This document shows positions 5,450 through 13,923 of a stretch of 47,087 nt of DNA, piece by piece. The stretch comes from Dactylosporangium sp. (lineage in GTDB: Bacteria; Actinomycetota; Actinomycetes; Mycobacteriales; Micromonosporaceae): NCBI GenBank assembly GCA_013041765.1, contig JABDRL010000288.1, positions 1 through 47,087 of the forward strand, in the 5' to 3' direction. The position numbers and the translations under genes are program-made. Position 1 is the stretch's first letter, and every line of letters starts with the position of its first letter. The notes beneath the pieces were generated by a model. That model was given only the letters and a program-made list of their open reading frames with translations. It was not told the origin of the DNA and searched no databases.

Positions 5450-6145
5450 ATGACCGACAGGAAGCCGATCTGCTTCTACTACGGAGCGGGCCAGCTTGAA
5501 GCGTTGACCAGGTACCAGCGGGTGGTGCTGCAACCGGAGTTCTTCCTGCCGAGGCAGCTGGGGTTTCTCGCGGCTCGGGGGGTGCAGACCCTCGCGTACC
5601 TGTCCCTGTCAGAGGACCAGGGGCCGCCGGCACCGTGGCAGCGGCCGGAGCGCAACGCCGACTGGGGCGGGATGTTCGTCCATGTTGACCATCCGCTGTG
5701 GGTGGACCATATGGTCAGGCAGGCCCTGGCCGCCATGGCATCGGGGTTCAGCGGGCTGTTCCTGGACACGCTCAATGTGGAACTGACGTTTCCGGAAGAC
5801 GTCCCCCACCTGCTGAAACTGGTCGGGGCGATCGTTGAGGAGGCCAAGCCGGCGTACCTGCTGGCCAACCGGGGCTTCGGCATGTTGCCCCAGCTGGCAG
5901 AACTGGTCGACGGCATTCTCTTCGAGTCGTTCTCCGCCCGCTGGACGGATGAGGGCTATGCCCCGTGGCCGCCGGATGTGCTGGAGTTCCATGCCCAGAT
6001 CGCCGAGCGGCTGCTTCAGCTCAACGTTGAGCTGTATGCCCTGGACTACGCCGACAGCCCGGGACTCGCCGACTTCGCGGTGCGTCGGGCACGGCAGTTC
6101 GGGTTGCAGTGTGTGGTGAGCGACCGGGCGCTCTCGCGGGTGTGA
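5450..6145 (+). CDS. GH114-like endo-alpha-1,4-polygalactosaminidase (TIM barrel)
   Basis: A 231-residue protein with the pattern of GH114/PelA-hydrolase-like TIM barrels. It has an N-terminal strand CFYYGAG, then VVLQPEFF, TLAYLSLSE, a GLFLDTLN strand with an acidic residue, LLANRGFGM, a VDGILFESF strand with a Glu, and LYALDYADSP near the C-terminus. Known members cleave alpha-1,4-linked galactosamine polymers or modify Pel-type exopolysaccharide. No signal peptide is visible from this start, so the protein may be cytoplasmic, or the family member may act as a processing partner of the synthase. An AGGTTGGC region rather than a strong Shine-Dalgarno precedes the ATG. It is the last gene of the polysaccharide operon and hints that the polymer contains galactosamine. 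Confidence 0.75.
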   Translation: MTDRKPICFYYGAGQLEALTRYQRVVLQPEFFLPRQLGFLAARGVQTLAYLSLSEDQGPPAPWQRPERNADWGGMFVHVDHPLWVDHMVRQALAAMASGFSGLFLDTLNVELTFPEDVPHLLKLVGAIVEEAKPAYLLANRGFGMLPQLAELVDGILFESFSARWTDEGYAPWPPDVLEFHAQIAERLLQLNVELYALDYADSPGLADFAVRRARQFGLQCVVSDRALSRV

Positions 6146-10230: not shown

Positions 10231-10992
10231 GTGGATGTGAGGGACTGGGATCGGGACGCGATGTCGGTCGGGGTGTTGCCAATGACCGGAGAGTCCGGTG
10301 CCCTAGACAGGTCGAGCGTTATCAACGCGCTGATTGCGACCTATGGGAACATCACCACTGCGGTGGAGGGCCTGCGTGAGGCCCAGCTGATCCGCCCCAG
10401 CCGGTGCGCCGGCTGGACTGTGGGCGACGTGCTCTATCACGTGCTTCTTGATGCTCGGCGGGCGCTGCGGACGTTCGTCACGCCGACGTCGGCTGAGCCC
10501 GATGTCGACCACGTGTCCTACTGGCGTCCGTTCTCGCCGCGCAGCGGCAAGCCGTTCGCACTCGGGGGCGCCGCCGCCGCGGCGCACGCCCGCCACGTGC
10601 GGATCGCGGCCTCCGCCTATCCTCCTGGCGCGCTGTTCTGGGAGTGGCGGGAGACGTCGGCCGCCGCCTGCCGGGCGGCCCAGGGCTGTCCGTATGAGCG
10701 GGTCGCCGCGCAGGGGCACGTGCTGGGGATCGCCGACTTCGTGGCGACCCTCGTGGTCGAGGCGGCGGTGCATCTGCTGGACCTCAACGTCGGCCTGCCC
10801 AACGCCCCGGCCCCCGACCCCGTGGCGCTCGAACTCGTCCGGCGGGTGCTCGACGGCCTGCTGGAGACTCCGGTGCCGGTGTCCTGGGACGACGCGACCT
10901 ATGCCCTGAAAGGGACCGGACGGGTCGGGCTGACCGAGGAGGAGTGCTTCGTCCTCGGCCACCTGGCCGGGCAGTTCCCGATGTTCGGCTAG
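10231..10992 (+). CDS. Mycothiol-dependent maleylpyruvate isomerase-like (DinB fold) protein
   Basis: A 253-residue protein by the GTG at 10231. ATG codons at 10261 and 10282 are equally plausible starts, and none has a strong ribosome site. The N-terminal half has the MDMPI/DinB pattern: SVINALIATYGNI, then RCAGWTVGDVLYHVLLDAR, corresponding to the usual W(T/S)VxD(V/L)xxHV helix with the metal-binding His. A second conserved region is FVATLVVEAAVHLLDL, with a His in the position used for metal binding. Such proteins use mycothiol or act as thiol transferases in actinomycetes. The substrate is unknown. The stop TAG is part of the CTAG where the IS5-type element inserted, and the target duplication regenerated it, so the protein is probably intact. 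Confidence 0.75.
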   Translation: MDVRDWDRDAMSVGVLPMTGESGALDRSSVINALIATYGNITTAVEGLREAQLIRPSRCAGWTVGDVLYHVLLDARRALRTFVTPTSAEPDVDHVSYWRPFSPRSGKPFALGGAAAAAHARHVRIAASAYPPGALFWEWRETSAAACRAAQGCPYERVAAQGHVLGIADFVATLVVEAAVHLLDLNVGLPNAPAPDPVALELVRRVLDGLLETPVPVSWDDATYALKGTGRVGLTEEECFVLGHLAGQFPMFG

Positions 10993-11868
10993 GGCCTGTC
11001 TCGTGGATCAACATCGTTGGGCCAGGTCACGCAGCCAGATTTTGATGGTGGCGACATCAAGCGTGGCCTGGTACATGTAGTCGCGCTTGTCGTACCTGTC
11101 CGCCACGGCCCGGAACGCCTTGAGTTTGTTCACGGCGCGTTCGACCGTGTTCCGCCGCCGGTACTGGGTCTGGTCGAACGCCGGTGGTCGAACGCCGGTG
11201 GGTCCCTTGCGCTGGCGGTTGGCGATCTGGTCGTCGGGTTCGGCGATGGTGGCCGTGACGTGGTGGCGGCGCAGCCAGGTGCGGATGGCGCGGTTGGCGT
11301 AGGCCTTGTCGGCCAGCACGCGCCCGGGTCGGGTGCGGGGGCGCCCGACGCGATGTGGGATCCGCACACCGTTCATGACTGGGAGGAGGCCCCGGCTGCC
11401 ATGGCGCTGGCCTGGGGTGGTGTGGCGAGTGGGGTATGGCGAGCGCCGGCGGCATGCTGGTGGGCGCGCACGACGCTGCTGTCGACCCCCAAGGTCCAGT
11501 CGCGGCCTTCGTCGAGGTCGGCGTCCATCCGCAGGGCTTCGGCGATGCGTTGCCAGGTGCCGTCCAGGGCCCAGTGGCGTTTGCGCTGGTAGACGGTCTT
11601 CCAGTTGCCGAAGCGTTCGGGCAGGTCACGCCAGGTCGTGCCGGTGCGCTCACGGAAGAGAATGCCGCTGATGACGGTGCGGTGGTCGTTCCACTTCCCG
11701 CCGCGTGGCGGATCGGCTGGCAGGAGCGGGGCGAGGATCTCCCATTCGGCGTCGGTGAGTTCAAAGCGTCTGATCATGGTGTTATCCACAGCGTTGTGTC
11801 ATTCGACTGACATAGCACTGTCAAGCGTCAGAAAAGTTCCGAGTGTCGATCCACGAGACACGCCCTAG
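10989..11868 (-). mobile_element. IS5-family-type insertion sequence, internally deleted, flanked by CTAG duplication
   Basis: The ends match as inverted repeats. GGCCTGTCTCGTGGATC at 10993-11009 pairs with 11848-11864, which read as GGCGTGTCTCGTGGATC on the opposite strand. The element is bounded by CTAG at 10989-10992 and again at 11865-11868, consistent with a 4-bp target duplication. It carries one transposase gene on the minus strand, split and missing a central segment. At 872 bp between the duplications it is probably non-autonomous. Confidence 0.85.
11008..11789 (-). pseudogene. IS5-family DDE transposase, frameshifted with central deletion
   Basis: The N-terminal piece (11373-11789, 138 aa) begins MIRRFELTDAEWEILAPLLP and carries the first catalytic Asp in LGVDSSVVRAHQH. 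It then runs out of frame and stops. The C-terminal piece (11008-11376, 122 aa) carries the second Asp in RVLADKAYANRAIR and the Glu in RNTVERAVNKLKAF. Between them, relatives have a Gly/Arg-rich GRSRGGxxTKIHLA strand and a following beta-strand; those ~40-50 residues are absent. The loss, together with the frame change, suggests an inactive enzyme. A programmed frameshift alone would not explain the missing segment. DDE residues themselves survive. Confidence 0.8.
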
Positions 11869-12735
11869 CGGCCGATCCACTGGTTGATCGCCAGGAAGGA
11901 CAGTCCGGACGTCGGGTGGGTGGTCAGGTCGTGGCCGCAGTACAGCGCGTCCTGCTCACCGCTGACCAGCAGCACCGGTTCGTTGACCAGGTTGGACTGG
12001 TTGGCTCCCGAGGGCGCCCCGAGTTCACCGATACCGTCCAGCATGAAGGTCCCGGAGATGACATCCTTGCGGGCCTCGTCGCTCGCGATGGTCCTCGGGT
12101 CGGCGATCGCGGAATAGAACATCTCTCCCCGCCCGCCCGGCACCGAGGTCAGGTAGCCCTGGTCGTATCCCCGCCCGGCGAACTTCGGATCGCTGTCCGC
12201 GGGATAGAGCACGTCGTACCTGGTGGACGCCGGCCCCGTCGCGCCCGGCCCGCAGCCATTCCACGACCCGGTGCAGCACCTCGGCCTCCACGTCCACGGT
12301 GATCGCGTCGCTGGGCGGTCGGCTGCTGCCGCCCACGCCGAGCCGGTCGTAGGCGAAGGTCGCCCTCCCGGCCCACAGGGTCCGCAGCACGTAGGAGTAC
12401 CTGAACCGGTCGACCGGCCAGTCCCAGTACGAGCGGTTGTACGTCCCGCCGTGGAGCAGCACGTCCACGGCCGGCTGGGGTCTTCCCCGCGTCGCCGGGC
12501 GGCAGAGTGTTCCAGCGATCGTCTGCTCCGCGTCCCCGAGGGACCGCACCGGAACCGTGAGGCGCACCTCCGTGCACCCGCCGGCCCGGGTGGCCATCGC
12601 CGGTTCGACCCACTGACAACACGGAACAGCACCCAGCACGACGGCGAGCCCGACGACGGGAACCAGTCGCAGGGCAGCACGCAAGCACACGGTCAGCGCT
12701 GAAAGACACGCCCTTCCTCTGTTGCCGTGCCGCAA
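11865..12735 (-). pseudogene. Secreted alpha/beta hydrolase, frameshifted and lacking its nucleophile segment
   Basis: Two frames together make one protein. The upstream frame (start TTG at 12735) has a hydrophobic signal region, a cysteine-containing domain, the oxyanion segment VDVLLHGGTYNRSYWD and ATFAYDRLGVGGSS, ending near VVEWLRAGRDG. The downstream frame continues with LYPADSDPKFAGRGYDQ and VLLVSGEQDALYC and ends at INQWIGR. In intact actinobacterial relatives, a ~45-residue stretch between these parts holds the GHSxG nucleophile elbow; here it is missing at about 12210-12240. The gene is therefore dead by both frameshift and deletion. Its stop codon TAG is the CTAG at the IS5 junction. 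Confidence 0.8.
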
Positions 12736-12978: not shown

Positions 12979-13923
12979 TCAGGCGTGCGAATGAGCGTGC
13001 GGGTGCCGGGTGAGCCGCTGGTAGCCCGACGCCAGCCAGAACGCCTCGGCCAGCCGCGCGTACCCAGCGTCGCTCGGATGGATATCGGCCTCCGCGGTGC
13101 ACAGGAGGGTGAAGGTGCACAGCGAGGCGGTCTCGTCGCCCGGGATACCCAGGTTGATGGCGGCGAACCCGTCCACGGGCCGCGCCCGGTGCCGCCTGGC
13201 CACGGCGGCCAGGACGGCATTGACCTGGCCAACGAGGGCGCCGCTGCCAGGTGCGACGAAGTAGATCGGGTTGTAGAGCGTCAGGACAAGGATTTCCGTG
13301 TCCGGCGCCGCGGTCCGCAGGCCCCCGAGGATGCGCGACAGCCGCCGGTCAAGCCCCTCCAGGACGGCTGGCAGCCCCTGCGCCACGCAGGTCATGTCCT
13401 GCTGGCACCCGTCGGCGAGAGCAAGGAGATCGTTGGCTCCGATACTCACCGTGACCGGAGCGACCTTCCCCCGGTGCGCTCTCAGGAAGGCGACAGCGGC
13501 GCTGAGCTGGGAGCCGCTGTAGTCGTTGTGCAGAGCCCTCGGGTAGCCCAGCCCAAGGACCGTCTGCGCGAACGCGCAGGGTCCCGCGATCATCGAATCG
13601 GTCGTCTCACCGGGACATGCGTAGTTGACCACGGTCTGGTCCCGCTGAGTCTTCGTCTCCACCAGTTGTTCCAAGGGCACGACGTATCCGGGGTAGCTGT
13701 CCGGAACATATGTTCCATCCGCCAGATCCGACGCGATCCTGGCGCTCTGGTGGCCAAAGCCAAGAGAGTCGCCAAGGGCCAGCGTGTACGCCTTCGGGGA
13801 ATCGAACACCGGTGGTGGTGCGCCGGACGCGCGCGCGGGGTCGACGTCGGACACCAGGGCCGTCATGCACAAGGCAATGGCCAAGGAGTACACAATAGGG
13901 CGCTTTATGCCAAACATACTCAT
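12979..13923 (-). CDS. Secreted SGNH/GDSL hydrolase
   Basis: A 314-residue lipase/esterase-family protein. A signal peptide is at 1-33 (hydrophobic YSLAIALCMTALV, then ARASG). Block I is GDSLGFG at 51-57 (Ser53 nucleophile). Block III is IGANDLL, and block V is DIHPSDAGY with catalytic Asp/His near the C-terminus. Several cysteines suggest disulfides, as in secreted SGNH esterases of Streptomyces. The C-terminal HPHAHSHA is a small His-rich tail. A GGGGGAGG ribosome site stands just upstream of the ATG at 13923. It probably hydrolyses ester bonds of lipids or acylated carbohydrate outside the cell. It is divergent from the hox operon across a 488-bp regulatory region. Confidence 0.88.
   Translation of the reverse strand: MSMFGIKRPIVYSLAIALCMTALVSDVDPARASGAPPPVFDSPKAYTLALGDSLGFGHQSARIASDLADGTYVPDSYPGYVVPLEQLVETKTQRDQTVVNYACPGETTDSMIAGPCAFAQTVLGLGYPRALHNDYSGSQLSAAVAFLRAHRGKVAPVTVSIGANDLLALADGCQQDMTCVAQGLPAVLEGLDRRLSRILGGLRTAAPDTEILVLTLYNPIYFVAPGSGALVGQVNAVLAAVARRHRARPVDGFAAINLGIPGDETASLCTFTLLCTAEADIHPSDAGYARLAEAFWLASGYQRLTRHPHAHSHA

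Follow-up and report, generated by a model that had tools for sequence, protein, structure and literature searches.

Genes and insertion site

The window, by which we mean the whole 47,087-nucleotide stretch of Dactylosporangium sp. DNA that was analysed, contains an isomerase-like gene and a convergent hydrolase frame with an insertion element fitted between their stop codons. The locus comprises the following features:

10231-10992, plus strand: mycothiol maleylpyruvate isomerase N-domain protein of 253 aa (open reading frame; Pfam MDMPI_N, 9e-15).
10989-10992: left copy of the CTAG target duplication, carrying the TAG stop of the isomerase (read from the sequence).
10993-11864, minus strand: IS5-family element of 872 bp, internally deleted (inverted-repeat ends; gap relative to a 967-bp relative in genome G121).
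10993-11012, plus strand: terminal inverted repeat on the transposase 3' side, GGCCTGTCTCGTGGATCAAC.
11008-11376, minus strand: transposase ORF B of 122 aa with the second Asp (DKAY) and the Glu (VERAVNKLK) (DDE_Tnp_1, 5e-7).
11373-11789, minus strand: transposase ORF A of 138 aa with the first catalytic Asp (VDSS) (DUF4096, 4e-27).
11845-11864, minus strand: terminal inverted repeat on the transposase 5' side, GGCGTGTCTCGTGGATCGAC.
11865-11868: right copy of the CTAG target duplication, carrying the TAG stop of the minus-strand hydrolase frame (read from the sequence).
11865-12735, minus strand: alpha/beta hydrolase pseudogene (frames 12025-12735 and 11865-12680; alignment with homologues).

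The isomerase frame terminates in ...MFG-TAG and the hydrolase frame 11865-12680 in ...INQWIGR-TAG, and the two identical CTAG tetramers that contain these stops bound the element on its left (10989-10992) and right (11865-11868) sides. When the flanks are joined at a single CTAG, the resulting site is GATGTTCGGCTAGCGGCCGATCC, in which the two TAGs overlap exactly within the palindrome. A preliminary description of this locus had claimed that (i) each CTAG provides the TAG stop of one of two convergent genes, (ii) the stops would overlap in one CTAG after removal of the element, and (iii) the 4-bp duplication gave each frame a TAG of its own. The coordinates and reading frames behind the first claim are correct, the joined site confirms the second, and the third is supported, as neither frame is cut by the element. 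The accompanying statement that both neighbours are intact holds for the isomerase and fails today for the hydrolase, now a pseudogene whose frame is shifted once and has lost two internal stretches.

In the hydrolase, the N-terminal and C-terminal parts lie in different frames, with the frameshift near 12225-12260, and comparison with homologues of the family reveals loss of the nucleophile (GHSxG) region and of ~40 residues before GHD. Its last residues align with the natural C-termini of the homologues, and the lesions are internal and do not reach the insertion point; thus, shortening of the hydrolase by the element was rejected. We assume that the gene was intact when the element arrived.

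According to the preliminary description, an orthologue of either gene extending past the CTAG would contradict an insertion at a shared stop. The isomerase orthologue of a congener (G001), 76% identical, stops with TGA at the same codon, and the stop in the window lies only a few residues from the ends of the hydrolase homologues. An element-free allele of the exact isomerase-hydrolase junction was not found, and in the same congener no convergent hydrolase is present in the 305 bp of available sequence behind the isomerase. In two Asanoa genomes (L044 and L045, ~5633-5663), an isomerase homologue (47%) ends in a CTAG without an element, and this CTAG is common to a convergent gene with a DnaB-like C-terminus, identified by eye only. 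The event in the window is very probably the insertion of an IS5-family element into a shared CTAG stop, common in type although neatly placed.

An internally deleted IS5-family element

The ends of the element, GGCCTGTCTCGTGGATC and GGCGTGTCTCGTGGATC, form an inverted repeat that is 92% complementary, with arms of 26 nt when CTAG is included. The search with NF033580 (IS5 family transposase, NCBIfam) gave 122 bits for ORF A, above the 110-bit cutoff of the model, at model positions 2-111 of 258, and 72.7 bits for ORF B, below this cutoff, at positions 168-258 of 258. The element combines the features by which descent from the IS5 family was judged, namely the profile match, short inverted repeats bounding 0.8-1.1 kb, and a YTAR/CTAG duplication. 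Judged by its sequence, it is a member of the IS5 family of the NF033580/DUF4096 type and a relative of IS1648.

About 55 positions of the NF033580 model are absent between ORF A and ORF B, and alignment with the 967-bp relative shows a 132-column gap in the transposase core; overall, the transposase lost about 40-55 codons. A complete transposase, a trait of active members that descent from the family does not require, is absent from the window copy, which retains apparently sound ends and is probably unable to move by itself. Intact copies of 909-1032 bp occur among the relatives, for instance of the kind in genomes G081 or G067. A 14-bp direct repeat at 11171-11198 was considered as a disrupting duplication and rejected, since it is frame-compatible coding sequence that looks similar in related copies.

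The hydrolase (12225-12260) and the transposase (11370-11430) resemble each other in that both have internal deletions but are otherwise little altered; this may reflect genuine erosion or an assembly effect. As the draft genome consists of 434 contigs, some of these deletions could be assembly errors.

CTAG as the target duplication

An exact search of 394 genomes of the class with a 17-bp end and four flanking bases matched nearly only the genome of the window. The survey was therefore based on related transposases: transposase-bearing loci were collected in 151 genomes of the family, and their inverted-repeat ends were resolved without presupposing any target, which gave a sample of ~60 insertions. 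Five loci with doubtful element ends (L224, L199, L187, L241, and L243) were either left out or marked as such. CTAG was the duplication in 61/61 cases with a recognizable YTAR duplication, and in all 15 cases collected independently from plasmids and viral contigs.

Such invariance of CTAG at the surveyed ends, together with an inverted repeat that can be extended through the palindrome, would also be expected if CTAG were part of the element ends, so that the element supplies the stops and its neighbours are truncated genes. The sequences outside the CTAG pair argue against this reading. Direct repeats of 2 bp were found there in 3/60 cases against ~5 expected, which is no excess, and repeats of 3 bp in 4/60 against 1.8 expected, a slight excess only; the window has one such 3-bp repeat, CGG, outside its CTAG pair, a point against CTAG as the duplication. 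No other target duplication is evident, and the isomerase orthologue of the congener, as described above, stops at the same codon.

Element-free sister sites provide further evidence against an element-supplied CTAG, as congeners have CTAG or TTAG at the orthologous junctions of two surveyed insertions, L222 and L268. For L222, the empty site in four congeners reads GGCATGTAYCTCTAG and continues into the end of the dehydrogenase gene, which is encoded on the opposite strand; the CTAG is common to both stops. For L268, the empty site in one congener reads ATCGTGAACTACCCGGCTTAGCCGTTGGCCCGGGCCA, in which a TAG on one strand and the TAA of Rho on the other share a single TTAG. Thus, insertion into a shared YTAR stop is directly confirmed for both loci. 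Moreover, natural C-termini of Rho, a zinc-binding dehydrogenase, and an aldehyde dehydrogenase end at the insertion sites, as do proteins of the window's own genome that resemble, by eye, the CBM2, FUR, and LuxR-type families. A CTAG carried by the element is refuted for the two sister cases by their empty sites; the idea was rejected on these sites and the lack of clear outer repeats, and we give truncated neighbours almost no credence at the window locus. Taking together the 61/61 CTAG cases, the lack of a clear excess of outer repeats, and the element-free sister sites, we conclude that the CTAG pair is a true target duplication and that CTAG is the normal target of the NF033580-type group.

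Two further arrangements involving CTAG were noticed in the survey. At L006 976-1013 (contig C402 of the same genome as the window), two element ends stand back to back with one CTAG between them, as if one copy had been inserted into the target duplication of another. Two copies in genome G120 (L258 and L259) are associated with a longer palindrome, TTAAAGATCAAG-CTAG-CTTGATCTTTAA, into which they were inserted or which they bring with them; it may represent either an inverted repeat of greater length or a palindrome favoured as target.

Recurrence at stop codons

To compare insertions with the background, genes were called by one simple home-made method on the joined sites and on their surroundings alike, and the background CTAGs were drawn from the neighbourhood of the insertions. 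Stop-codon CTAGs account for 23-24 of the 60 insertions (38-40%) against 51-57 of the 406 nearby CTAGs (13-14%), roughly a threefold difference in frequency, with an odds ratio of ~4 and p ~1e-5. Convergent stops shared by two genes make up 5-6/60 insertions and 5-6/406 CTAGs (p 0.002-0.005). With the window excluded, both enrichments persist, at p 1e-5 for stops and p 0.018 for shared stops. Within the genome of the window, stop codons make up 6/7 of the insertion sites whose ends are clear and 22/124 of the CTAGs (p 4e-4), and the proportion among insertion sites becomes 6/9 when two weaker matches are added.

The preliminary description had called for a survey of other copies, and three additional secure insertions were found to split shared convergent stops:

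L222: shared convergent stop of a TY-chaperone gene and a zinc-binding dehydrogenase gene.
L268: shared convergent stop of an unknown gene and Rho.
L279: shared convergent stop of a hydrolase gene and an unknown gene.

Together with the window, these are the secure cases; L224 is a shared-stop case with doubtful ends. A single event of this kind proves little, as shared convergent stops make up ~1% of all CTAGs in these genomes (1/124 non-IS CTAGs in 417 kb of the genome of the window), and a CTAG insertion might simply have happened upon one. The three independent further cases and the four-fold enrichment of stop-codon sites make pure coincidence improbable.

What deserves to be retained from the observation is this recurrence at stop codons. 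The partly covered literature on insertion sequences at stop codons, and on CTAG in connection with Streptomyces IS5 elements, does not describe this bias, and a stop-codon target bias of CTAG-duplicating IS5-family elements is possibly undescribed so far.

Target preference, CTAG distribution, and selection

CTAG is a rare tetranucleotide in this genome. The window contains 22 copies against 59 expected from dinucleotide shuffles, and 417 kb of the genome contain 132 against 1186 expected from base composition, an approximately nine-fold deficit; the existing CTAGs are mostly outside coding interiors. The bases around the tetramer also matter: G or C at both ±3 positions was observed in 50/59 targets and in 141/320 background CTAGs (p 4e-9, for a motif derived from the same survey data), and the hold-out set of plasmid and viral insertions has it in 11/15 cases (p 0.025).

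Part of the stop enrichment remains after these features are considered. Among CTAGs with the ±3 motif, stops are still enriched (22/50 targets vs 30/141 background, p 0.003), and in tandem gaps they account for 6/8 targets vs 8/26 background CTAGs (p 0.04). Such an enrichment can be produced either by loss of insertions in genes and promoters or by a targeting bias. Active targeting of stop codons or convergent 3' ends beyond the CTAG preference, whether mediated by an extended motif, by DNA structure, by supercoiling, or by the state of transcription, would account for the persistence of the enrichment within both subsets and for the high proportion (6/7) in the genome of the window; it would also agree with the reported preference of E. 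coli IS5 for destabilized, intergenic DNA (PMC5493358, PMC11677980). However, convergent gaps of up to 400 bp show no such preference: stops make up 11/12 targets vs 24/29 background CTAGs there (p 0.65), so nearly all CTAGs in such gaps are stops and an additional preference is unnecessary there. Furthermore, resident copies have passed through selection, which is itself sufficient to enrich stops, and survivorship and targeting are therefore inseparable in resident copies. We consider active targeting unlikely. The recurrence is likely caused by the CTAG target, the rarity of CTAG inside genes, the ±3 G/C preference, and the loss of harmful insertions.

The proposal of the preliminary description that the insertion represents a target choice can thus be retained in part: the element selects CTAG with G/C at ±3, whereas the enrichment of stops is explicable by the distribution of CTAG and the loss of harmful insertions. 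A more far-reaching formulation would be that CTAG-duplicating IS5-family elements of high-GC actinobacteria are effectively stop-codon-seeking, combining an SNNCTAGNNS target with a further bias so that they enter native stops, including shared ones beside genes such as rho, and keep the coding sequence; we offer this generalization only tentatively and consider it rather doubtful.

Alongside what was observed directly, that is, the anatomy of the locus, the CTAG duplication, the targets in the survey, and the empty sites of two sister cases, we propose the following scenario. A copy of an IS1648-like IS5-family element would have transposed into one CTAG that served as the TAG stop of both the isomerase-like gene and the convergent hydrolase gene. 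The transposase presumably cut the strands four bases apart around the palindrome, and repair would have duplicated the CTAG, so that each gene was left with a stop of its own and an uncut frame. The element has decayed, and the hydrolase carries independent deletions that may be older or younger than the insertion; the order of events at the locus is inferred. Recurrence would arise from the CTAG target with G/C at ±3, given that CTAG is depleted about nine-fold in these GC-rich genomes, lies mostly outside gene interiors, and in short convergent gaps is nearly always a stop, and insertions that cut genes or promoters were probably lost, a form of survivorship that would leave stop codons over-represented. 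We regard this account as a whole, from insertion into a single shared CTAG and its duplication to recurrence via target and survivorship, as very probable.

CTAG is avoided inside genes and yet forms a stop on both strands, and a gene that ends there survives the insertion via the duplication. The scenario offers a concrete and testable account of how insertion sequences may survive in a gene-dense genome with little harm. Should the bias originate during insertion rather than through selection, such elements would act as natural safe-harbour inserters, placing DNA behind a gene that stays untouched.

Comparison with known elements

The nearest named relative that we met is IS1648 from the Streptomyces coelicolor plasmid SCP2. 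Like the element in the window, it has two overlapping NF033580 transposase ORFs (58% identity for ORF A and 54% for ORF B) and CTAG on both sides; unlike the window copy, it retains the central transposase region.

E. coli IS5 has the target Py-T-A-Pu with CTAG as the commonest duplication, and CTAG has been noted as an under-represented tetranucleotide (PMC5493358). Its target is looser (CTAG in 15 of 24 listed cases, PMC5493358) than that of the group studied here (61/61), and its transposase belongs to a different subgroup. Elements of the IS427 group, for example those of Paracoccus, are 830-865 bp long, with short imperfect inverted repeats and two ORFs with a frameshift (PMC3281130). 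The window element agrees with them only in size, two-ORF layout, and target; the duplication in the IS427 group is usually given as 2 bp (PMC3281130), in contrast to the 4-bp CTAG observed here.

Short MITE-like elements were also encountered. A non-autonomous element of ~410 bp on contig C207 of the genome of the window (L093 3863-4269) is flanked by CTAG at each end and lies directly at the stop of a LuxR-type gene. Another of ~410 bp on contig C428 (L104 ~12996-13412), with the same ends, is flanked by CTAG at one end and by TCAG at the opposite end, and lies directly at the stop of an ORF of 119 aa. In genomes G100, G109, G047, and G084, pairs of similar ends lie ~150-170 bp apart, many with an outer CTAG, which suggests a short MITE family across the bacterial family. 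The MITE-like relatives, such as the one on contig C207, share with the window element the CTAG duplication and ends of the GGCnTGTCTCGTGGATC type; they differ in having no transposase reading frame, whereas the window copy still has most of one.
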